A stretch of 64,000 nt of DNA from Pseudonocardia sulfidoxydans NBRC 16205 (lineage in GTDB: Bacteria > Actinomycetota > Actinomycetes > Mycobacteriales > Pseudonocardiaceae), in NCBI RefSeq assembly GCF_007989085.1, contig NZ_BJVJ01000003.1, positions 62,001 to 126,000 on the forward strand. Direction: 5' to 3'. Each line of letters starts with the position of its first letter. Positions within the stretch are counted from its first letter, which is position 1. The notes below the pieces were generated by a model. The model was not told where the DNA came from. It did no database searches and was given only the letters and a program-made list of their open reading frames with translations. A program made the translations under genes and the position numbers. Of this stretch, positions 728 through 55,950 are shown one piece after another.

Positions 728-767
728 GTGAGTGGCAATAGTCGCTATAGCGACTATTGCCACTCAC
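728..767. repeat. 40-bp palindrome, family 1, copy 1
   Basis: This is a perfect palindrome with 20-base arms; the left arm is GTGAGTGGCAATAGTCGCTA. It lies between the convergent TetR and P450 genes. The P450 reading frame runs through one arm and ends at a TAG (754-756) inside it. The core ATAGTCGC is much more AT-rich than its surroundings. Related copies are at 7723, 14851, 24407, 50915 and 55911. There is no U-tract, so a terminator role is uncertain. Confidence 0.9.
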
Positions 768-6376: not shown

Positions 6377-7726
6377 ATGTCCGGACCCCGCTCGGTCGCG
6401 GTCGACGACCGCGGGTACCCGCGCTTCTGGGACGAGGAGCGCGAGACCCTCGAGCCCGCCAAGCGTGACGCCCTGATCCTCGACCGGATCCGGCACCAGC
6501 TCGCCTACGCGTGGGCCGAGCTGCCGTTCTACCGGCGGCACTGGGAGGCCCACGGCTTCCACCCCGACCAGGTCACCGCGCTGGAGGACTTCACCACGAA
6601 GGTCCCGGTGATCACCAAGAAGATGCTCGTCGCCGACCAGGCGGAGCACCCGCCCTTCGGCAGCTACGCCCGCGAGCTCCCGCCCGGCGGGATCGCCCGC
6701 ATCCACGGCTCGTCGGGCACCTCCGGGACGCCGACGATGTACGCCGTCTCCAAGGCCGACTGGGACCGTGCGGGCGACGTGCACGCGATGGCGCAGTGGT
6801 GCGCGGGCGTCCGCCCCGACGACGTCGTGCAGGTCGGGTTCCCGTTCGGGCTGTTCTTCGGCGGCTGGGGCGTCGTCCAGGGGGCGGAGCGCATCGGCGC
6901 GACCCTGTTCCCGCTGGGCGTCACCGACTCCGAGAAGCACCTGCAACTCATCGCCCGGCTGGGCTCGACGGTTTTCAGCGCGACGCCGTCGTACTGCATC
7001 CATCTGCTGTCCGTGGCCGACAAGCTGGGCATCGACCTGCGCGCCTCCACGATCCGGCACCTGCTCGTCGGCGGTGAGCCCGGCGGCTCGCTGCCCGGTA
7101 CCCGCAAGATCATCGAGGAGGGTTGGGACGCGATCGTCTCCGACGCCGGCTCGACGTCGGAGATGTACCCGTTCCAGACCAGCGTCGGCTGCGAGGCCGG
7201 CACCGGCACCCACCTCTACACCGACGAGGTCTACACCGAGGTCGTCGACGGCGCCGACCTCAACGTGCCGATCCCGGTGGGGGAGCGCGGGGCGATCGTC
7301 TACACCCACCTCTGGCGCGACTCCCAGCCGATGATCCGCTTCGCGCCCGGCGACGAGACCTACCTTGCGACGGACCCCTGCCCCTGCGGGCGCACCTACC
7401 CGCGGCTGCCCGAGGGCGTCCTCGGCCGCCTCGACGACATGCTCGTCATCCGCGGCGCCAATGTCTTCCCGTCGGCGGTGGAGACGGCGCTGCGCAGCGT
7501 CCCGGAGCTGGGCCCGGAGTTCCGCATCCGCGTCTCCAAGCGCGGCGCGCTCGACGAGCTGACCGTCGAGGCCGAGGCCGACCCCGGTGACGACGCCCTG
7601 CGCGCCCGCACCGAGGAGGCCCTCGTCCGCGTCCTGGGCATCCGCACCGGCGTCACCCTCCTGACGCCCGGCACGCTCCCGGAGACCACGTTCAAGGCCC
7701 GCCGGGTGGTCGACGAACGCCTGTGA
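6377..7726 (+). CDS. Phenylacetate-CoA ligase-like enzyme
   Basis: The 449-residue protein matches the PaaK group in length and motifs: the P-loop HGSSGTSGTPT (about 112-122), the DAGSTSEMYPFQTS region, the CPCGRTYPRL segment and a FRIRVSK-containing C-terminal domain. PaaK-type enzymes activate arylacetates and benzoates, so an aromatic or alicyclic acid is a fair guess. SD GAGGAG precedes the ATG, 11 bases after the previous stop. The TGA stop forms the first bases of palindrome copy 2. Confidence 0.9.
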   Translation: MSGPRSVAVDDRGYPRFWDEERETLEPAKRDALILDRIRHQLAYAWAELPFYRRHWEAHGFHPDQVTALEDFTTKVPVITKKMLVADQAEHPPFGSYARELPPGGIARIHGSSGTSGTPTMYAVSKADWDRAGDVHAMAQWCAGVRPDDVVQVGFPFGLFFGGWGVVQGAERIGATLFPLGVTDSEKHLQLIARLGSTVFSATPSYCIHLLSVADKLGIDLRASTIRHLLVGGEPGGSLPGTRKIIEEGWDAIVSDAGSTSEMYPFQTSVGCEAGTGTHLYTDEVYTEVVDGADLNVPIPVGERGAIVYTHLWRDSQPMIRFAPGDETYLATDPCPCGRTYPRLPEGVLGRLDDMLVIRGANVFPSAVETALRSVPELGPEFRIRVSKRGALDELTVEAEADPGDDALRARTEEALVRVLGIRTGVTLLTPGTLPETTFKARRVVDERL

Positions 7727-7762
7727 GCGGCAATAGTCGCTATAGCGACTATTGCCGCTCAC
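7723..7762. repeat. 40-bp palindrome, family 1, copy 2
   Basis: This is a perfect palindrome with left arm GTGAGCGGCAATAGTCGCTA. The TGA of the PaaK-like ligase is at 7724-7726, inside the arm. It differs from copy 1 at position 6 (T to C), matched by the paired change at position 35, so complementarity is kept. The next gene is in the same orientation, making this the only copy at a non-convergent gene end. The following 220 bases to the next gene hold nothing I can identify. Confidence 0.9.
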
Positions 7763-10312: not shown

Positions 10313-10329
10313 GCCCGCCGCCTTCTGCA

Positions 10330-10374
10330 CGAACGGCACAGTCGCGCAATTGAGTTGCAGCACTGTGCCGTTCG
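10330..10374 (+). repeat. Hairpin repeat, family 2, copy A
   Basis: Outer arms CGAACGGCACAGT and ACTGTGCCGTTCG (13 bp) enclose a conserved loop containing GCAATTGAGTTGC, itself partly self-complementary. It lies directly after the HxlR stop, in the same orientation as copies B (10401) and C (55821). A bidirectional terminator or a short mobile repeat are both possible; no U-tract follows the stem. Confidence 0.8.
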
Positions 10375-10400
10375 TTCGCTGCGCCGGCCGGAACCGGTTC

Positions 10401-10453
10401 TGCACGAACGGCACAGTCGCGCAGTTGAGTTGCGCCACTGTGCCGTTCGTGCA
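10401..10453 (+). repeat. Hairpin repeat, family 2, copy B
   Basis: The arms TGCACGAACGGCACAGT and ACTGTGCCGTTCGTGCA are perfectly complementary over 17 bp, with a 19-base loop containing the inner GCGCA/TGCGC stem. It is a direct repeat of copy A, 26 bases downstream, and lies before the end of the convergent ABC exporter gene at 10480. The loop sequence is asymmetric, so the element has an orientation. Confidence 0.85.
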
Positions 10454-10479
10454 CAAAAGGGGGTGCCGGGGCGGGCCGC

Positions 10480-13961: not shown

Positions 13962-14854
13962 ACGCCGACCCGCTGTTCATCGAGGTCCGCTGCAACGAGT
14001 CGACGATGCGCGGCGCCAACCCGCACCTGCCGTACTCGACCGAGGAGATCGTCCGCGAGGCCGTCCGCAGCCACGACGCCGGTGCGGCGATCATCCACTG
14101 GCACGGCCGCGACCCCGACACGGGCGGGCCCGACAACAGCGTCGAGACCTACCGGGCCGCCCACGAGGGCATCCGCGGCGCGACCGACCTCATCAGCAAG
14201 CCGACGCTGGGCTACATCAGCCAGACCGGCGTCGAGGACCGCGTGAAGCACCTGCGGGCGCTGGCCGACGACCCGTGGCTGCGTTTCGACGCCGCCGCCG
14301 TCGACTTCGGGTCGCTCAACATCGACACCTGGGACGCCACGACGCGTAGGTTCACCCCGGGCGACGGCGTGTACGTCAACAGCCGCAACGACATCGAGGC
14401 CGTCCTGCGGATCCTCGACGACATCGACACCTACCTGACGACGGTCGTATGGGACATCGGCCAGATCCGCACGGCGAAGGCCTTCCGCGAGATGGGGCTC
14501 GCGCAGGCGCCGACGTTCTGGGAGCTGGTGTTCACCGGCGACTCCCGCCCGTCGGGCGCGGGCACGAACCTGCTGGCACTGCAGGCGATGGTCGCCGAGC
14601 TTCCGCCGGGGGAGCCGTGGCAGCTGATGTGTTACGGCGGCGACGTGCTGCCGCTGGCGGCGGCGGCGATCGTGCTGGGCGGGCACGTCGCGATCGGGCT
14701 GGGCGACCACGACTACGCCCGTTTCGGCACCCCGCACAACGGTGAGCTGGTGGGACGCGTGGCGGCGCTGGCCGAGACGATCGGCCGCCCCGTCGCGACC
14801 CCGGCGCAGGCCCGGGAACTGCTGGGCATGCGCCCCCTGCAACAGCCCCTGTGA
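13958..14854 (+). CDS. Beta-keto acid cleavage enzyme (BKACE, DUF849)
   Basis: The 298-residue TIM-barrel protein has the BKACE metal site: HWH (His47, His49) at the end of a strand, and Glu14 in the RCNE segment. BKACE enzymes condense a beta-keto acid with acetyl-CoA to give acetoacetate and a new CoA ester, bypassing ATP-dependent activation. Translation is coupled to the SDR by GTGA. The TGA stop (14852-14854) lies within palindrome copy 3, whose other arm holds the stop of the convergent P450. Confidence 0.9.
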   Translation: MNADPLFIEVRCNESTMRGANPHLPYSTEEIVREAVRSHDAGAAIIHWHGRDPDTGGPDNSVETYRAAHEGIRGATDLISKPTLGYISQTGVEDRVKHLRALADDPWLRFDAAAVDFGSLNIDTWDATTRRFTPGDGVYVNSRNDIEAVLRILDDIDTYLTTVVWDIGQIRTAKAFREMGLAQAPTFWELVFTGDSRPSGAGTNLLALQAMVAELPPGEPWQLMCYGGDVLPLAAAAIVLGGHVAIGLGDHDYARFGTPHNGELVGRVAALAETIGRPVATPAQARELLGMRPLQQPL

Positions 14855-14890
14855 GTGGCGATAGTCGCTATAGCGACTATCGCCACTCAC
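14851..14890. repeat. 40-bp palindrome, family 1, copy 3
   Basis: This is a perfect palindrome, left arm GTGAGTGGCGATAGTCGCTA, extended to 44 bp by flanking CT/AG. Stop codons of both convergent genes lie in it: the BKACE TGA at 14852-14854 and the P450 TGA at 14887-14889 on the other strand. It differs from copy 1 by A to G at position 10 with a compensating change at position 31. This is the clearest case of the element forming two gene ends at once. Confidence 0.95.
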
Positions 14891-15933
14891 AGGAGCAGGA
14901 TCGGGTAGCTGTCGTGGCGGCGCTGGGCCGTCGGGGCGAGGACGGGCGGGCGGTCCGGGTCGGGCCGCACGCCCAGCTCCCGCAGCCGCGCCAGGATCCG
15001 CAGGTGCACGCCCGGGGTGACGGCGGTGCCCGTCACGACGGCCCGGCCCAGGCACAGATGCGGGCCGCTGCCGAACGTGAGGCCCCACGGGCGGGCCCGC
15101 CCCGCGACCGCGCGGCCCGGCCGGAACTCGTCGGCGTCGGCACCGAAGACGGCCGGGTCGCGGTTGGCGGCGTGCAGGTCGACGGCGACGTGGTCACCGG
15201 CGCGGACGAGCCTGCCGTCGCGCAGGGTCACGTCCTCCAACGCCCGCCGTAGCAGCGCGACCGTCGGTGGATAGAGGCGCAGGGTCTCCGCGAGGGCGTC
15301 GGGGAGCCGGGTGTCGGGCACCGGGTGCCGCGACAGCTCGTCGACGGTGTGCACCAGCAGCGCCGCGTTGTTGAGCGTCGAGGCCGCGAGGAACAGCACG
15401 ACCTCGCGGACCGCGGCCTCGTCGTCCCACTCGCCGGGGTGTTCGGCCATGATCGCCGCGAGTGAGGTGCCCTCCGAGAACCGGGGGAACTCTGAGACGA
15501 GCGCCTCGCGCGCCGCGAGACCTTCCGCGAGCACGACCTCGTGCGAGCGCGTCGACCACTCGACCGTCACCGCCTCCAGCAACGGCCCGAGCAGGGCGAG
15601 CAGCCGCGGCGTCCGCGCGCCGAGCTCACCCAGCCCGATCATCGACGCCGCGAGCTGCAGGAACACCGACCGCCCCAGCGGTACGAGATCGTCGGCGTGC
15701 GCGCGAACACAGGAGTCCACGGTCGCGGCCACCACTGAGTCGTAGCCCGCGAGCGCGGTCCGCGACATCAGCGGCGCCAGCAGCCGACGCCTGTGCAGGT
15801 GGGCGGGACCGTCCAGAACCAGGACGGTCCCGCCCACGAGCGGCGCGCTCTCGTGCTTGGACTCCTGCGCGAACCGGCGCGACGTCAGGATCTCGTCGGC
15901 CTCGGCGAAGGAGGTCACGCGCGCGAGGGTCAC
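14887..15933 (-). CDS. Divergent short cytochrome P450
   Basis: The 348-residue protein keeps the heme loop FGSGPHLCLG (Cys294) and an ETLR ExxR motif but is about 50 residues short of a normal P450, and its I-helix reads FLAASTLNN where AGxET is expected, so both acid and alcohol are missing. It resembles the P450 at 47543 (shared VEWST and LDGPAH/LDGPGH segments). GTGA overlap with the molybdenum hydroxylase gene puts it in that operon. It may act with peroxide, have a non-oxygenase role, or be decaying. Confidence 0.82.
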   Translation of the reverse strand: MTLARVTSFAEADEILTSRRFAQESKHESAPLVGGTVLVLDGPAHLHRRRLLAPLMSRTALAGYDSVVAATVDSCVRAHADDLVPLGRSVFLQLAASMIGLGELGARTPRLLALLGPLLEAVTVEWSTRSHEVVLAEGLAAREALVSEFPRFSEGTSLAAIMAEHPGEWDDEAAVREVVLFLAASTLNNAALLVHTVDELSRHPVPDTRLPDALAETLRLYPPTVALLRRALEDVTLRDGRLVRAGDHVAVDLHAANRDPAVFGADADEFRPGRAVAGRARPWGLTFGSGPHLCLGRAVVTGTAVTPGVHLRILARLRELGVRPDPDRPPVLAPTAQRRHDSYPILLL

Positions 15934-22776: not shown

Positions 22777-24410
22777 TGCGGACCTACGACGATCTGCGGC
22801 TCACCTTCCCCGACCGGACGACGTGGACGCTGCCCGCGGTCCTGCGGCACCGCGCGACGACCCACGCCGACGCCGTGTTCCTCGACGTCCCGTTCCAGGG
22901 CACACAGCTGACCTACGCCCAGACCCTCGACGCGGCCGAACGCGTCGGCGGGGCGCTGCTCGCGGGCGGCTGCGTGCAGGGCGACCGCGTCCTGATCATG
23001 GGCGCCAACAGCGTCGAGTACCTGCTCGCGTGGATGGGCGCATCGGTCGCGGGGCTCGTCGAGGTCCCGATCAACACCGCCTACCGCGGCACGTTCCTGG
23101 AGCACCAGGTCCGCACCGTCTCGCCCAGCGCCGCGGTGGTCGACCCCGAGTTCGTCCCGCATTTCCTGACCCTCGACGCGGCACGCGCGGTGAAGACCTT
23201 CTACGTCACCGGCGCCGCCTCGGGCGAGGCGGTCGCGGCCCTGCGCGCCGGTGGGTGGGAAGCGCACCCGTTCGCGGACCTGACCGGTGCCGACCGCCCG
23301 GCCGAGCTGCCCGAGGTCGCCGCCTCCGACCTCGCCGCCATCCTGTTCACCAGTGGCACCACCGGCCTGTCCAAGGGCGTGATGATGCCGCACGCCCACT
23401 TCCACTTCTTCGCCGACGAGTGCGTCTCGCTCTGCCGGCTCACCGACGCCGACGCCCACATGGCCGTCGGCCCCCTCTTCCACGGCAACGCCCAGTTCCT
23501 CGCCTGCTACCCGGCGCTGATCGTCGGCGCCCGGTTCGTGCTGCAGCAACGCTTCAGCGCCTCACGCTGGGTCGACCAGCTGCGCGAGTCGCGCGTGACC
23601 GTCACCAACTTCATCGGCGTGATGATGGACTGGGTCCACAAGCAGCCCCGCCGCGACGACGACGCCGACAACCCCCTGCGCTGCCTCTACGCCGTCCCGC
23701 TCGCCACCTCGATCGCCCCGGACTTCAAGGCGCGCTTCGGGATCGAGGCGTTCGTCGAGAACTTCGGGCTCACCGAGATCTCCATGCCGATCCTCACGCC
23801 CTACGGCGCGGACCGGCCCGCGGGGGCGGCGGGCCTGCTCGTCGAGGACTACTTCGACGTCCGCCTCGTCGACCCCGAGACCGACGAGGAGGTGCCGGTC
23901 GGCGAGGTCGGGGAGCTCGTCGTCCGCGCGCACCTGCCGTTCACGATGACGTCGGGCTACTACGGGATGCCCGAACGCACCGTCGAGGCCCAGCGCAACC
24001 TGTGGTTCCACACCGGCGACGGGCTGCGTCGCGACGCCGACGGCTGGTACTACTTCGTCGACCGGCTCAAGGACGCCCTGCGCCGGCGCGGGGAGAACAT
24101 CAGCTCGTTCGAGGTGGAACAGCCGATCCTCGCCCATCCCGGGGTGGTCGACTGCGCGGTCGTCGGTGTCCCCGCCGATGCCGAGGCCGGCGAGGACGAG
24201 CTGCTCCTCGTCGTCGTCCCGGAGGAAGGGGCCACCCTGACCGCCGCCGACGTCTGGGACTGGTGCGAACCCCGCCTGCCCGCCTTCGCGATCCCGCGCT
24301 ACGTCCGCATCGCCGACGCCCTCCCCATGACCCCCTCGGGCAAGGTCCGCAAGCTCGAACTCCGCGAGCAGGGCGTGGACGCCGCGACCGCGGACCGCGA
24401 CACCCTGTGA
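22776..24410 (+). CDS. AMP-dependent acyl-CoA ligase, CaiC-like
   Basis: The 544-residue ANL enzyme shows FTSGTTGLSKGV (about 191-202), the FGLTE adenylate motif, LWFHTGD and the catalytic C-terminal Lys in PSGKVRK. Sequence texture (EVPINTAYRG, RRRGENISSFEVE) resembles carnitine/crotonobetaine-type ligases. It is coupled to the BadI-like hydrolase (TGATG), so it may activate the acid whose ring the hydrolase later opens. Its TGA lies inside palindrome copy 4. Confidence 0.92.
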   Translation: MRTYDDLRLTFPDRTTWTLPAVLRHRATTHADAVFLDVPFQGTQLTYAQTLDAAERVGGALLAGGCVQGDRVLIMGANSVEYLLAWMGASVAGLVEVPINTAYRGTFLEHQVRTVSPSAAVVDPEFVPHFLTLDAARAVKTFYVTGAASGEAVAALRAGGWEAHPFADLTGADRPAELPEVAASDLAAILFTSGTTGLSKGVMMPHAHFHFFADECVSLCRLTDADAHMAVGPLFHGNAQFLACYPALIVGARFVLQQRFSASRWVDQLRESRVTVTNFIGVMMDWVHKQPRRDDDADNPLRCLYAVPLATSIAPDFKARFGIEAFVENFGLTEISMPILTPYGADRPAGAAGLLVEDYFDVRLVDPETDEEVPVGEVGELVVRAHLPFTMTSGYYGMPERTVEAQRNLWFHTGDGLRRDADGWYYFVDRLKDALRRRGENISSFEVEQPILAHPGVVDCAVVGVPADAEAGEDELLLVVVPEEGATLTAADVWDWCEPRLPAFAIPRYVRIADALPMTPSGKVRKLELREQGVDAATADRDTL

Positions 24411-24446
24411 GCGGTAATAGTCGCTAGAGCGACTATTACCGCTCAC
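24407..24446. repeat. 40-bp palindrome, family 1, copy 4
   Basis: Arms of 19 bases (GTGAGCGGTAATAGTCGCT) flank an AG centre. The CoA ligase TGA (24408-24410) is inside the left arm. Position 9 is T here against C in most copies, and its partner position is A, keeping pairing. The convergent SDR gene ends 118 bases away, with a third inverted repeat between. Confidence 0.88.
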
Positions 24447-48868: not shown

Positions 48869-50094
48869 CTACAACAGCTCGGACCGCACTCGCCGAACTC
48901 GAGCAGTTCGCCACCGGCGCGAGCGCGCCGGACCCGTACCCGATCTTCGCGCGGCTGCGCGCCGAGGCGCCCGTCGTGTGGAGCGAGCCGCTGCAGGCCT
49001 GGCTCGTCACCGGCTGGGCCGAGGTCACCCGGGGATTCAAGGACGCGGCGTCGTTCGGCCCGTTGACCGCGGGCGCCGGCAGCAGCGCGATCTACGGCCG
49101 GACGATCCTGCACATGTCCGGCGACGAGCACCGCCGCAAGGCCGCCATCGTCGCCCGGCGCATCCGCAACCGCCGCGAGCTGCGCGGCACGATGCGGGAG
49201 CGGATCACCGCGCTCGTCTCCGCCCTGGGCGACGAGCTGCCCAGCGCCCCCGGGGTCGCCGACATCCGTGCCGGGCTGACCACCCCGTTGCCGCTCACCG
49301 TGATCGCCGAGCTGACGACGATGCACGAGGCCGTCAACTTCCCGCAGTGGTACCACGACCTCGCCGGCGCCAGCGTCTCCAACGTCTCCCGTGACCCCGC
49401 CGTGCACGCCCGCGGGGTGGCCGCCCGCGAGGAGATCGACGCCTGGCTCGACCCCGCGATCGCCCGCAAACGCGCCGACCCCGGCGACGACCTGCTCTCG
49501 GACCTCTGCACCGTCGAGTACGAGGGCCAGCGGCTCTCGGACACCGAGATCAAGTCCAACACCGCGTTCTTCCTCGCCGCCGGCATCGAGACCACCGACC
49601 GCGCACTGGTCAACCTGCTCGGCGGGCTGATCCGGCACCCCGAGCAGTGGGAACGACTCCGCGCCTCACCAGAGCTGGTGCCGTCGGCGGTCGCCGAGGT
49701 GCTGCGCTGGAAGGCGCCCGTTCAGGGCTCGGTGCGCCAGGCGCTGGTCGACGCGTCGCTCGGTGGGGCCTCGATCGCCGCGGGGGAGAAGCTGATCCTG
49801 CTCCTCGGCGCAGCCAACCGCGACCCCGCGGTGTTCCCCGACCCCGACACCTTCGACGTCGGCCGGTTCGCCGACAACGCCGACCCCCAGTTCACCCCGG
49901 TCGGCCCGTTGCGCGCCTTCGGCGGCGGCGAGCACACCTGCTCCGGGTCGCTGCTGGCCAAGCTGGAGATGGAGGTCGCCCTCGAGCACCTCCTGAGCCG
50001 CTACCGGCGGCTGTCCTTCGCGGGTGAACCGCCGGTCGACGCGGGCTTCATGCTGCGGTCCGCCCCGTCCCTGTTGCTCGAGCTGCACCCCTGA
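48865..50094 (+). CDS. Cytochrome P450
   Basis: The 409-residue canonical P450 has AGIET (239-243), EVLR and the heme loop FGGGEHTCSG (Cys359). It is followed by an SDR, a VOC protein and a ferredoxin in one operon, so the ferredoxin at 51463 is its likely electron donor and the SDR the likely next step for the alcohol made. Translation is coupled to the seven-codon leader. Confidence 0.95.
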   Translation: MTTTARTALAELEQFATGASAPDPYPIFARLRAEAPVVWSEPLQAWLVTGWAEVTRGFKDAASFGPLTAGAGSSAIYGRTILHMSGDEHRRKAAIVARRIRNRRELRGTMRERITALVSALGDELPSAPGVADIRAGLTTPLPLTVIAELTTMHEAVNFPQWYHDLAGASVSNVSRDPAVHARGVAAREEIDAWLDPAIARKRADPGDDLLSDLCTVEYEGQRLSDTEIKSNTAFFLAAGIETTDRALVNLLGGLIRHPEQWERLRASPELVPSAVAEVLRWKAPVQGSVRQALVDASLGGASIAAGEKLILLLGAANRDPAVFPDPDTFDVGRFADNADPQFTPVGPLRAFGGGEHTCSGSLLAKLEMEVALEHLLSRYRRLSFAGEPPVDAGFMLRSAPSLLLELHP

Positions 50095-50105
50095 GGAGAC
50101 GAACG

Positions 50106-50900
50106 ATGACCCGCTTGTCGGGAAAGAGGGCCGTGATCACCGGAGCCGGCTCCGGCATCGGCCGGGGGACCGCACTGCGGTTCGCCGCGGAAGGCGCGGC
50201 CGTCGTGTGCGCCGATCGCGACCTCGCCGGGGCCCAGGAGACCGTCACCCTGATCGCCGGCAAGGGCGGCACCGCGCTCGCCGTCGCCGCCGACGTCGCG
50301 AACGAGGCCGACGCCGCCGCGATGATCGACTTCTGCGCCGACGCCTTCGGCGGACTCGACATCCTCTACGCCAACGCCGGTATCCCCGGCGTCGGCACCG
50401 GCGCGGGCACCACGCTCGACGAGTGGCAGCGCGTCATCGACGTCAACCTCACCGGCGTCTTCCTCTCCGACAAGTACGCGCTCAAGCACCTCATCGCCCA
50501 GGGCGGCGGCGGGTCGATCATCAACCAGGCCAGCGTCGGCGGGCTCGTCGGCGTCGCCGGGATCGCCCCCTACGCCGCCGCCAAGGCCGGCGTCATCGGG
50601 CTGACCCGCCAGCTCGCCGTCGAGTACGGCCCCGCGCAGATCCGGGTCAACGCGCTGTGCCCCGGCACCGTGCCCACCCCGCTCGTCCGCGCCACCTACG
50701 AGGCCCGTGGCGGGTTCGGCACCGACACCGGCGAGTCCGTCGACGAGACGCTGGAGATGCAGCGCGCCCTGCGGTTCCCGCTCGGGCGCCTCGGCACCGA
50801 GGAGGACGTCGCCATGGCCGCGGTCTACCTGGGCAGTGACGAGTCGACATGGGTCACCGGCCAGATCTGGGCCGTCGACGGCGGGCAGACCGCAGCATGA
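50106..50900 (+). CDS. Short-chain dehydrogenase/reductase
   Basis: The 264-residue SDR has TGAGSGIGRG (13-22), ADRD after strand two (NAD preference), NAGIPG, the Ser of NQASVGG and YAAAK. GAGGAG precedes the ATG 11 bases after the P450 stop. Its stop overlaps the ATG assigned to the VOC gene (ATGA). It probably oxidises the alcohol formed by the P450. Confidence 0.93.
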   Translation: MTRLSGKRAVITGAGSGIGRGTALRFAAEGAAVVCADRDLAGAQETVTLIAGKGGTALAVAADVANEADAAAMIDFCADAFGGLDILYANAGIPGVGTGAGTTLDEWQRVIDVNLTGVFLSDKYALKHLIAQGGGGSIINQASVGGLVGVAGIAPYAAAKAGVIGLTRQLAVEYGPAQIRVNALCPGTVPTPLVRATYEARGGFGTDTGESVDETLEMQRALRFPLGRLGTEEDVAMAAVYLGSDESTWVTGQIWAVDGGQTAA

Positions 50901-51451
50901 GCACCGAACAGCCTGTGAGCGGGAATAGTCGCCATGGCGACTATTCCCGCTCACAAGGCCCGGTCGCCGAGCCGGCCCGCGGCACCGCCGCCGAGGGCAT
51001 CGCCCGGATGCATCACGTCGGCATCCAGGTCGCCGACCTCGACCGCTCGCTCGCCTTCTACGAGGGCCTGCTCGGCTTCGAGGTCATCACCCGGCAGGTC
51101 CGCGGCGAGGCCTACGCCGGCGAGGTCGTCGGCTACCCCGGCGTCGAGCTGCACCTCGCGCACCTGCGTCCGCCCAACTCGTCGGTCGTCATCGAGCTGA
51201 CCGAGTACCGCGGTGTCGAACGCACACCCGTCGACACCTCGACGGCCAACCCCGGCACCGCCCACACCTGCTACGTCGTCGACGACGTCGAGGCCGTCCA
51301 CGCCGCCCTGCTGGCCGCGGGCGTCCGCCCGGTGTCGCGCACGATCGTGTCCCCGGAGGTCGGGATCGCGAAGGGCGGCAAGGTCGTCTACGTCCAGGAT
51401 CCCGACGGCGTCCGCGTCGAGCTGCTGCAACCACCACCGTCATCGAGCTGA
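50897..51451 (+). CDS. VOC-family (glyoxalase-like) protein with palindrome-encoded insert
   Basis: The 184-residue frame carries a VOC metalloenzyme domain from about residue 38 (MHHVGIQVADLDRSLAFYE), with further likely ligands in the AHTCYVV segment and Glu in VRVELLQ. The start overlapping the SDR stop reads MSTEQP and then runs in frame through palindrome copy 5, adding VSGNSRHGDYSRSQ. ATG 51008 (Met38) is an alternative start without the insert, but its ribosome site is weak. VOC members include methylmalonyl-CoA epimerases and ring-cleavage dioxygenases. Confidence 0.8.
   Translation: MSTEQPVSGNSRHGDYSRSQGPVAEPARGTAAEGIARMHHVGIQVADLDRSLAFYEGLLGFEVITRQVRGEAYAGEVVGYPGVELHLAHLRPPNSSVVIELTEYRGVERTPVDTSTANPGTAHTCYVVDDVEAVHAALLAAGVRPVSRTIVSPEVGIAKGGKVVYVQDPDGVRVELLQPPPSSS
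50915..50954. repeat. 40-bp palindrome, family 1, copy 5
   Basis: This is a perfect palindrome, left arm GTGAGCGGGAATAGTCGCCA. Unlike other copies it lies between co-directional, overlapping genes and is read in frame within the N-terminus of the VOC gene, with no stop in that frame. Positions 9 (G) and 19 (C) differ from other copies and are matched by their partners at 32 and 22. Confidence 0.92.
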
Positions 51452-51462
51452 GGGGGAGCCCC

Positions 51463-51651
51463 GTGCGCGTCGACATCGATCTCGCCGCCTGTGCCGGGCA
51501 CGGGCAGTGCGCCGCGACGTCCCCGGACGTCTACCACCTCGACGACGACGGGTTCGTCCTCGACGACGTGACCGTCGCCGACGGCGCGGAGGACGACGCC
51601 CGCGAGGGCGCATCGGCCTGCCCGGAGAACGCGATCACCGTGCGGGACTGA
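51463..51651 (+). CDS. [3Fe-4S] ferredoxin of the P450 partner type
   Basis: The 62-residue ferredoxin has three cluster cysteines, Cys10, Cys16 (CAGHGQC, with His where a fourth Cys would sit) and Cys53 followed by Pro. This is the pattern of actinobacterial 3Fe-4S ferredoxins that feed P450s. AGGGGGAG precedes the GTG, 11 bases after the VOC stop. No ferredoxin reductase gene is present in the window. Confidence 0.93.
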   Translation: MRVDIDLAACAGHGQCAATSPDVYHLDDDGFVLDDVTVADGAEDDAREGASACPENAITVRD

Positions 51652-51660
51652 GTCCGGAGC

Positions 51661-51698
51661 GGTTGACCCGGCGCCGAATTCAGGGTCATAGTAGTCAG
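51661..51698 (+). promoter_or_regulatory. Promoter with AGGGTCAT-type motif, copy 3
   Basis: TTGACC is visible at 51663-51668, and CATAGT at 51687-51692 follows at 18 bases, a near-consensus SigA promoter. The -10 is embedded in AGGGTCATAGTAGTCAG (51682-51698), the best copy of the shared motif. A leader of about 45 bases with AAGGAGGT leads to the GTG at 51741. Confidence 0.6.
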
Positions 51699-51740
51699 TA
51701 TCTTCACCACGTAGCGTCGGTCACAAGGAGGTGCGGGCTC

Positions 51741-53375
51741 GTGCGCGTCTGGAACGGCGATCTCGGTTCGGAACACGACATGCTGGTCGTCGGGGCCGGG
51801 GCGATCGGCCTGACCGCGGCCCTGGTGGCCGCCGACGCCGGCGCCCGCGTCGCCGTCCTGGAGAAGGCGCCCTACCTCGGCGGGACCTCCGCGGTGTCCG
51901 GCGGGATGTTCTGGATCCCGATGAACACCCGGATGTCGGCACTGGGCCTGACCGACGACCGCGACGACGCGCTGCGCTACCTGCGTGCCGTCACCGACGG
52001 TCGCACCGCCGACGACGTCCTCGCCGCCCTCGTCGATCGCGGCCCCGAGATGCTCGACTTCCTCGAGCGTCGCGCCGGGCTGCGCATGGCGCCCATGGAC
52101 AACTTCCCCGACTACCACCCCGAGTGGGACGGTGCCCACCCCGGCGGCCGCTCGCTGGACCCCGAGCTCTACGACATCCGGCAGCTGGGCGAGCTCGCGG
52201 AGAGCCTGCGCCCCGACGCGCGCCTGCCGTTCACGATGCGCGAGTACGAGGAATGGCGCATCTTCACCCGCTTCCCGACCGACATGCTCGAACAACGGGC
52301 CGCCGACGGCCTCGTCGCGCGCGGCCGCGCCCTGGTCGCGCCGCTCGTCGCCGCGTGCGCCGACGCCGGCGTCACCCTGGTCACCGACTGCGGCGCCGAA
52401 CGCCTCGTCGTCTCCGACGACGCCATCGCCGGCGTCCTCACCGCCGACGGCAGGCGCATCGACGCCCAAGCCGTCGTCATCGCCTGTGGCGGGTTCGAGT
52501 GGTCACCGGAGATGGTCGACAACTTCCTGTCCGGGCCGGTCCACGGAAGCTGCAGCCCGCCCCACAACACTGGCGACGGAATCCGCATGGCCGCCAAGGC
52601 CGGCGTCCGCCTCGGCTCGATGCGCGAAGCCTGGTGGGGACCGATGGTCCTCGTCCCCGGCGACGAGACCGACGGCGCCCAGACCGGCACCCTGCTGCGG
52701 TTCGAGCGCACCGGTCCGCACACCGTGATCGTCAACCGCAACGGGCAGCGGTTCGTCAACGAGGCGCACAACTACAACGACATGACCAAGGCGTTCCACC
52801 TGTTCGACCCGGGCGCCTACGACTTCGCCAACCTGCCCGCCTACCTGATCTTCGACGAGCAGCACCTGCGCGAGTACGGCTTCCTCTCCCACCGGGCCGG
52901 GCAGCCGACACCGTCGTGGATCCGCACGGCCCCGACGATCGCCGAGCTCGCCGCGCTGCTGGAGATCGACCCGGCCGGACTCGGCGCGACGCTGGACCGC
53001 TTCAACGCCAACGCGCGCAACGGCGTCGACCCCGACTTCAACCGGGGTGCCAGCGCCTACGACCAGTACTGGGGCGACCAGCACGCCCCGCACCCCGCGC
53101 TCGGCCCCGTCGAGACCGCGCCGTTCTACGCCGTCGAGGTCGTCTCCGGGGTCATCGGCACCAAGGGCGGCATCGTCACCGACGGCGACGGCCGCGCCCT
53201 CGACGCCTTCGGCGACCCCGTCCCCGGCCTCTACGCCGCGGGCAACACCACCGCGCACCCGATGGGCCCCGGCTACCCGGGCGCGGGCGCCACCCTCGGC
53301 CCCGGCTCGACGATGGCCTACGCCGCGGGCCTCGCGGCCGTCGCGCAGCTCGGCCTGCGCCCCGTCTCGACCTGA
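51741..53375 (+). CDS. FAD-dependent dehydrogenase, 3-ketosteroid dehydrogenase-like
   Basis: The 544-residue flavoprotein has VVGAGAIGLTAALVAADAG near 16, EKAPYLGGTSAVSGG near 41 and the C-terminal LYAAGNTTAHPMGPGYPGAG motif characteristic of KstD/fumarate reductase-type enzymes. It is closer to KstD in this last segment than the 25383 protein. AAGGAGGT eight bases before the GTG fixes the start. With the cupin and OYE genes it forms an operon for ring dehydrogenation and reduction. Confidence 0.9.
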   Translation: MRVWNGDLGSEHDMLVVGAGAIGLTAALVAADAGARVAVLEKAPYLGGTSAVSGGMFWIPMNTRMSALGLTDDRDDALRYLRAVTDGRTADDVLAALVDRGPEMLDFLERRAGLRMAPMDNFPDYHPEWDGAHPGGRSLDPELYDIRQLGELAESLRPDARLPFTMREYEEWRIFTRFPTDMLEQRAADGLVARGRALVAPLVAACADAGVTLVTDCGAERLVVSDDAIAGVLTADGRRIDAQAVVIACGGFEWSPEMVDNFLSGPVHGSCSPPHNTGDGIRMAAKAGVRLGSMREAWWGPMVLVPGDETDGAQTGTLLRFERTGPHTVIVNRNGQRFVNEAHNYNDMTKAFHLFDPGAYDFANLPAYLIFDEQHLREYGFLSHRAGQPTPSWIRTAPTIAELAALLEIDPAGLGATLDRFNANARNGVDPDFNRGASAYDQYWGDQHAPHPALGPVETAPFYAVEVVSGVIGTKGGIVTDGDGRALDAFGDPVPGLYAAGNTTAHPMGPGYPGAGATLGPGSTMAYAAGLAAVAQLGLRPVST

Positions 53376-55820: not shown

Positions 55821-55867
55821 ACGAACGGCACAGTCGGGCAGCTGAGTTGCGCCACTGTGCCGTTTGT
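55821..55867 (+). repeat. Hairpin repeat, family 2, copy C
   Basis: Outer arms ACGAACGGCACAGT and ACTGTGCCGTTTGT pair with one G-U wobble, around a loop containing GCAGCTGAGTTGC like those at 10330 and 10401. It has the same orientation as those copies. It sits between the convergent OYE and alcohol dehydrogenase genes, 43 bases before palindrome copy 6. Confidence 0.82.
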
Positions 55868-55910: not shown

Positions 55911-55950
55911 GTGAGCGGCGATAGTCGCCATAGCGACTATCGCCGCTCAC
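55911..55950. repeat. 40-bp palindrome, family 1, copy 6
   Basis: Arms of 18 bases (GTGAGCGGCGATAGTCGC and its complement) flank a CATA centre, which is the only imperfect part. The alcohol dehydrogenase TGA (complement, 55949-55947) lies inside the right arm. It shares this convergent junction with family-2 copy C. Confidence 0.88.

Follow-up and report, generated by a model that had tools for sequence, protein, structure and literature searches.

A REP-like palindromic element with an open frame at a coupled SDR/VOC gene junction of Pseudonocardia, probably read as a protein tail

The window analyzed here is a 64,000-nucleotide stretch (C3:62001-126000) of the 6.58 Mb, 209-contig genome of Pseudonocardia sulfidoxydans NBRC 16205 (G000). 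Within it, a short-chain dehydrogenase (SDR) gene is followed by a gene of the VOC/glyoxalase superfamily, and a perfect palindrome lies at their junction (Table 1). An inverted repeat search gave two arms of 21 nt each (50914-50934 and 50935-50955) that are 100% complementary, with no spacer between them. The ATG at 50897-50899, proposed as the VOC start, overlaps the SDR stop codon TGA at 50898-50900, and the frame continues to 51451 without a stop, passing a second candidate start, Met38, at the ATG at 51008. A first-pass annotation had described this palindrome as a copy lying after an ATGA-coupled VOC start and translated without a stop as VSGNSRHGDYSRSQ, within a 37-residue extension ending before Met38. 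These points were borne out, as the palindrome is exact, the frame is open from 50897 to 51451 and the leader measures 111 nt. The annotation was also correct that the same frame is open on both strands: a minus-strand ORF from 50954 reads MSGNSRHGDYSRSQ, the same peptide, because the element is palindromic. Its numbering of the copy as the fifth holds by position, with six copies in the window.

Table 1. Coordinates of the SDR/VOC junction and of the other palindrome copies in the window
Feature	Position	Strand	Basis or remark
Palindrome copy of the family	728..767	.	
Palindrome copy of the family	7723..7762	.	
Palindrome copy	14851..14890	.	both flanking convergent genes, as called, terminate on its TGA
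Palindrome copy of the family	24407..24446	.	
SDR (short-chain dehydrogenase) gene	50106..50900	+	ORF list; Pfam adh_short_C2 203 bits, adh_short 183 bits
ATGA stop/start overlap, proposed VOC start	50897..50900	+	sequence; present too in 5 close orthologs examined
37-residue leader (N-terminal extension) of VOC protein	50897..51007	+	111 nt; part behind element: frame 0 scores best
VOC / glyoxalase-superfamily gene	50897..51451	+	Pfam Glyoxalase 66 bits, residues 37-176
42-bp perfect palindrome, copy 5	50914..50955	.	inverted repeat search, genome pattern
40-bp family core of copy 5	50915-50954		flanks CCT (50912-50914), AAG (50955-50957)
In-frame translation of element, VSGNSRHGDYSRSQ, residues 7-20	50915..50956	+	translation
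Met38, alternative VOC start	51008..51010	+	codon-usage gene caller; GAGGG ending 10 nt before, this strain only
Palindrome copy of the family	55911..55950	.	

The copy at the junction is predicted to fold into a strong hairpin (-34.8 kcal/mol alone; z -7.2 in context). A search of Rfam over 50000-52000 returned three matches, all well under the gathering score, the best being a miRNA hairpin model at 33 bits against 90.5 (E 3e-4). Structure prediction for the VOC protein from a 6-sequence alignment gave a mean pLDDT of 55.3, with residues 1-34 below 50, and was too weak for use.

The palindrome belongs to a repeat family of high copy number. Half-site matches (at most 3 mismatches) numbered 10 in the window, against a mean of 0.01 in shuffles of it, and the whole genome contains 317 or 318 full copies according to which of two patterns was searched (at most 3 mismatches), with 0 for the reversed-pattern control. 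The family core reads GTGAGYGG-NRATRGTCGC-NNNN and back. By their CT..GA ends, 63 of 90 sampled copies could be oriented; the left end was CCCT in 42 of them and the right end GACC in 36, the other right-end classes being GAGG (11), GAGC (7) and GACG, which is CGTC on the opposite strand (1). These recurring ends indicate a whole element of about 46-48 bp that is slightly asymmetric. Among 69 copies, Watson-Crick pairing was kept by 65 at pair 6, where 36.6 were expected, and by 68 at pair 10, where the expectation was 36.3, and the arm sequence was conserved beyond the needs of pairing. The copies were mostly single: none of 81 neighbor spacings in the sample was below 500 bp, the minimum being 1013.

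Across the genus, 17 of 62 Pseudonocardia genomes carried at least one copy, and eight of these carried 48 to 318. In a family-level sample, 19 of 297 genomes gave matches, 11 of them outside the genus, with at most 61 copies in one other genus. Four genomes of another genus of the family, g25 (G258, G301, G306 and G317), had 20 to 61 pattern matches each, and the copies listed for G258 and G306 often had AAG/CTT at the center. A search of a plasmid collection with one consensus palindrome gave 0 matches.

Several related structures were observed alongside the family. Outside the spacing sample, at G000:C11:20769-20975, two half-sites lie 169 nt apart and may form a close pair of elements. Near-perfect palindromes that keep the GTGAGYGG ends around a different inner arm occur at G000:C2:8843-8882 and, in Pseudonocardia sp. 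SCN 73-27 (G033), at C4 113051-113096, 140843-140880 and 174063-174110; examples of such arms are CGGTATTGGC and CATTACTGGC, as if arms were rewritten as a unit. The window contains another recurring inverted repeat, ACGAACGGCACAGTCG.., whose loop is 1-7 nt, at 10329-10375, 10398-10456 and 55821-55867, and it occurs also in stretches of G033 and of P. dioxanivorans CB1190 (G010). At 15799-15837 of the window, GTGGGCGGGACCGTCC forms an inverted repeat around a loop of 7 nt, and similar hairpins were seen in stretches of G033 and of Pseudonocardia sp. N23 (G038).

The genomic position of the copies was determined in 1.56 Mb of G000 holding 90 copies (at most 4 mismatches), with genes called by a home-made codon-usage caller trained on the long ORFs of this genome, whose individual gene ends may err. 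The flanking genes were convergent for 50 copies, codirectional for 35 and divergent for 4, and 1 copy lay within a gene. Convergent gaps thus hold 50 of the 89 extragenic copies, compared with 20% of intergenic bases (p=1.4e-13). A stop codon was found within 15 nt of the element edge for 78 of the 89, while 500 random intergenic placements gave a mean of 7.2 and a maximum of 15. The same rule held for 12/13, 12/14 and 3/3 copies in stretches of relatives, and the VOC copy fits it, its 40-bp core lying 14 nt downstream of the SDR stop. In many cases the element itself provides the stop. Of 135 gene-3' sides, 35 were stopped by its own TGA (bases 2-4) and 8 by its TAG (bases 12-14). Part of this TGA-over-TAG bias is due to TGA being the commonest called gene stop in G000 (1236/1438). 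In the common form of the element, these two codons close two of the three frames and leave the third open. Called genes contained only the one copy among 90, in the tail of a CydD gene, and 0 of 30 in the stretches of three relatives. The family is a REP-like palindrome found overwhelmingly at gene 3' ends.

The strong hairpins that follow stop codons or separate convergent genes, together with paired arm changes among copies and between species, would suit a bidirectional transcription terminator that evolved as such, with the SDR/VOC copy acting as an attenuator that lowers VOC expression. This explanation is compatible with translation of the copy. However, the hairpin, though G+C-rich, is not followed by the U-tract of a canonical Rho-independent terminator: the T run was at most 3 in the 10 nt past the hairpin on all 136 of 136 transcribed sides, and a terminator scan of 50000-52500 returned 0 terminators. 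A hairpin would also not require so long a fixed sequence or recurring ends, and a terminator placed after CydD, ahead of its neighbor gene, would sever a likely operon. We regard the terminator reading as possible but doubtful. Given the missing U-tract, standard terminators are a poorer description of the extragenic copies than 3'-end hairpins, which would serve end protection or mark a U-less boundary.

Whether the VOC copy is translated was addressed with the best eight VOC matches, that of G000 included. The palindrome is present at this site in G000, G010, G033 and G038, whose VOC domains are 92-100% identical, and absent in Pseudonocardia sp. 73-21 (G034) and P. thermophila (G060) at 86% and in the more distant G011 and G024 at 66%. 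All six close genes keep the ATGA, with or without the palindrome. Their leaders are 111, 141, 159 and 129 nt long in the four that have the element, and 30 and 18 nt in the two that do not. All six lengths are multiples of three despite differing duplications, such as a 24-bp unit present three times beside the palindrome in G033 (an 8-residue repeat) and a 15-bp repeat in G038 (a 5-residue repeat; loci L048 / L077 and L049 / L078). In the four palindrome-bearing species the element always stands in the same open frame, and the argument from frame preservation covers four related leaders. Codon scoring placed frame 0 on top in 6 of 6 leaders, with positive scores in five and -2.4 in G010; in the four element-bearing species this score refers to the part behind the element alone. 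Between G000 and G033, pN/pS was 0.12/0.19 in the leader outside the element, 0.13/0.12 inside it and 0.03/0.19 in the VOC domain.

The first-pass annotation had offered a start at Met38 as its alternative. The palindrome would then belong, untranslated, to the 3' end of the SDR gene, within a gap of 107 nt, and its frame would be open by accident. The gene caller prefers this start at 51008, GAGGG precedes Met38 in this strain and the Pfam Glyoxalase match begins at residue 37, although protein-family models begin anywhere from residue 34 to 47 and do not decide the VOC start. A leader pN near pS is what an untranslated spacer would also show, and PMC3733652 cautions that N-terminal REPs are often in truth extragenic, owing to misannotated starts. 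Against a Met38 start stand the frame kept in all four palindrome-bearing leaders through different duplications and the GACGG that replaces GAGGG in the other three of these species. Comparison with orthologs free of the repeat, which had been proposed as a check, weighs the same way, as two close relatives use the same ATGA and one of them, G034, has Leu in the place of Met38. A further argument comes from the in-frame CydD copies, where the question of a start site does not arise. The Met38 start is thus the less likely of the two, and we consider it unlikely; translation of the VOC copy from the ATGA is, on these comparisons, quite probable.

CydD provides a stronger case than VOC because an alternative start cannot take a C-terminal element out of the protein. 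The copy at C2:152639-152678, the sole one of the 90 sampled that the caller placed within a gene, lies in a protein matching TIGR02857 at 672.8 bits; its ATPase domain is followed by ...GTPPAPVSGNSRYSDYCHSQGVVSQGVVS and then by a stop overlapping a GTG. This GTG is probably the start of the next gene, which is presumably CydC. CydD matches occurred in 47 of 62 genomes, and 15 tails including that of G000 were read from 30 loci. In G000, G033, G038 and G010 the ATPase domain, the palindrome and the stop share one uninterrupted frame, and the predicted C-terminal tail of G010 includes VSGDGRYGDHRHPQGVAS. In G033 the palindrome is still perfect although its inner arm differs considerably, and in G038 it has decayed, with 5 mismatched pairs. 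Three further tails end in VSGNGR or VSG(D/N)VR, with a TAG near the palindrome center (G009, G047 and G057; L214, L218 and L220), and are possibly eroded half-elements supplying the stop. The element was absent from eight of the 15 tails.

In a third gene, which we take from its sequence to be 3-hydroxyisobutyryl-CoA-hydrolase-like, G000 and G033 carry the element in frame after a GTGA, and G010 carries it upstream of the ATG; the other seven of the 10 genomes read (10 of 16 loci) were without the element there. This copy is probably translated, less surely than that of CydD because, as in VOC, the coding signal lies on one side of the element only. All three copies are at overlapping gene junctions and at protein termini, none inside a domain. 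The first-pass annotation had held that a lack of any other in-frame copy would speak against its reading; the CydD and hydrolase-like genes supply such copies in several species. These genes were retained with VOC from an open-frame scan that gave 8 candidate frames among 69 copies and 0 among 21 further copies. The other five candidates (sites 26, 41, 59, 65 and 67) were dropped by eye. At site 41 (C3:167868) the same frame recurs in G033, and AAGGAGG stands shortly before its Met, for which reason the element was judged to be 5' untranslated. Six open frames were listed in relatives, of which two are the VOC orthologs already counted and four were dropped by eye.

Comparison of species separates the variable from the constant features of the element. 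In the VOC palindrome, all 18 of 18 outer pairs are kept from G000 to G033, with two pairs changed on both sides, and 4 of 5 codon changes within the element alter the amino acid. The VOC palindrome has five mismatched pairs in G010 and one in G038, and the frame is open in both. Strict conservation thus holds for the frame, and neither for the peptide nor, in all species, for the palindrome, which is mostly conserved. Over 17 orthologous site pairs with flanks on average 89% identical, orthologous elements differed by 2.89 compared with 3.32 for non-orthologous ones (9 pairs) and by 2.14 compared with 2.40 (7 pairs). Since orthologous arms are hardly closer than non-orthologous ones, the element itself does not show one inherited insertion. 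These 17 site pairs hint at element turnover or homogenization. Alignments with empty sites at six sites revealed neither clean insertion points nor target duplications.

Position 13 of the arm also depends on lineage: it is A in 121 of 138 arms of G000 and mixed at orthologous sites in G033 (5 G, 4 A) and G010 (4 G, 3 A). Such a consensus, together with arm conservation beyond pairing, would be expected of a protein-binding or DNA-uptake type motif selected at the DNA level. However, half-sites never occur alone, since all 138 of 138 (at most 2 mismatches) fall within the 69 palindromes of 1.17 Mb of G000, and the positions of the copies track stop codons. A motif of this kind is therefore improbable; a single uptake-type motif was set aside for want of isolated half-sites in the 1.17 Mb. 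A MITE of an insertion sequence would share its terminal repeats with a full IS, and the same 1.17 Mb gave no half-site on its own.

Herein, we consider it probable that the feature at the SDR/VOC junction is a copy of a high-copy, REP-like Pseudonocardia element that stands in an open frame and is tolerated as an N-terminal tail. The palindrome, its copy number, its place behind stops, its frames and its presence or absence in relatives are read directly from the DNA; the events proposed below would connect them. The element normally sits directly behind stop codons and, with built-in stops in two frames, usually terminates whichever frame meets it. At the SDR/VOC junction, a copy would have landed behind the SDR gene and within the VOC leader in the open frame, leaving VOC translatable from the ATGA with an added N-terminal tail. 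The same arrangement is seen where CydD adjoins its downstream neighbor, there as a C-terminal tail, and probably also ahead of the hydrolase-like gene. At an ATGA or GTGA junction, a closed-frame copy would disrupt coupled translation, and an open-frame copy alone would spare both genes. Translating ribosomes would presumably keep the hairpin unfolded at coupled junctions, while extragenic copies may act as 3'-end RNA hairpins, as a transcript boundary or in mRNA protection. We infer tolerance of the encoded peptide, not selection for it, the tail being presumably neutral, and the copies at one site would go back to a single ancestral insertion. A bolder version, which we hold only tentatively and think rather unlikely, is that of a transposase-orphan, frame-gated actinobacterial element: two frames would end the genes they enter, and the open third would silence its own hairpin under translation, so that the element settles in coupled junctions and adds end peptides, its arms being remade repeatedly into perfect palindromes at a pace exceeding the divergence of the neighboring genes.

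Rickettsia and proteobacterial REPs provide the best-known cases of palindromic inserts read in frame, and such inserts now appear in a free-living, high-G+C actinobacterium. Their presence and absence across named species allow gain, frame choice and tolerance to be traced. They also raise a testable question, namely what spreads and homogenizes a 40-bp palindrome with no RAYT gene found. For annotation, our results suggest that terminal tails with VSG(N/D)xR-like peptides in Pseudonocardia may be element-derived. The interest lies chiefly in the same sites being occupied in several species, in three genes, two of them with inferred starts, and with the mobilizer not found. Among the titles and abstract openings of the open-access matches listed, no actinobacterial precedent was found.

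Three known systems offer comparison. In Haemophilus influenzae, the repeated uptake signal sequence (USS) occurs as dyad pairs at the 3' ends of genes (PMC5217627). The Pseudonocardia element shares with these inverted pairs a repeated dyad motif at gene 3' ends, and differs in that its half-sites were never isolated in 1.17 Mb. REPs of the GTAG and CGTC super-families (PMC3733652) are 20-40 bp palindromes found in high copy number, for the most part downstream of genes and in gaps whose ORFs are convergent or unidirectional; their ends supply stop codons, and some copies lie within ORFs, including N- and C-termini. The element resembles REPs as a short palindrome in more than 100 copies (318), mostly extragenic and behind genes (78/89 within 15 nt of a stop), with convergent gaps, stop supply and some copies at protein termini or in frame. 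The main text of PMC3733652 does not mention Actinobacteria, Mycobacterium, Streptomyces, Frankia or Pseudonocardia. In contrast to REPs, the element is a near-perfect palindrome and lacks the unpaired GTAG (GT(A/G)G head) or CGTC tag, its ends being mostly CCCT/GACC and the GACG right end appearing in 1 of 63 orientable copies. Unlike in the REP/RAYT system, the sample held no dimers or BIME clusters (0/81 spacings below 500 bp), with one possible pair on C11. The RAYT tyrosine transposase (Y1_Tnp, PF01797) matched in 5 of 62 Pseudonocardia genomes and in none of the eight with at least 48 copies, so RAYT/REP mobilization is unsupported. CGTC REPs are likewise without a dedicated transposase according to PMC3733652.

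Copies of Rickettsia palindromic elements (RPEs) are also found at internal protein positions. By PMC2229807 and PMC3733652, RPEs are palindromic repeats with an open frame that lie in frame in protein genes, their intragenic insertions being variably located; their length is 105-146 bp in PMC2229807, and PMC3733652 assigns the shorter RPE-4 and RPE-6 to the REPs with a CGTC tag. The resemblance to RPEs drawn by the first-pass annotation stands for in-frame copies in several genes, those of CydD in four species and those of VOC and the hydrolase-like gene with a presumed upstream start. It fails for RPE anatomy, the Pseudonocardia element being 40-48 bp without a CGTC tag, and for placement, as its translated copies lie at protein termini and not in domains (inside called genes 1/90, the CydD tail, and 0/30 in relatives). 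True membership of a RAYT-mobilized REP family or of the Rickettsia RPE family is accordingly very improbable. As tags, RAYT, close dimers and RPE forms all fail, we describe the element as one that works like REPs and RPEs and file it under neither.
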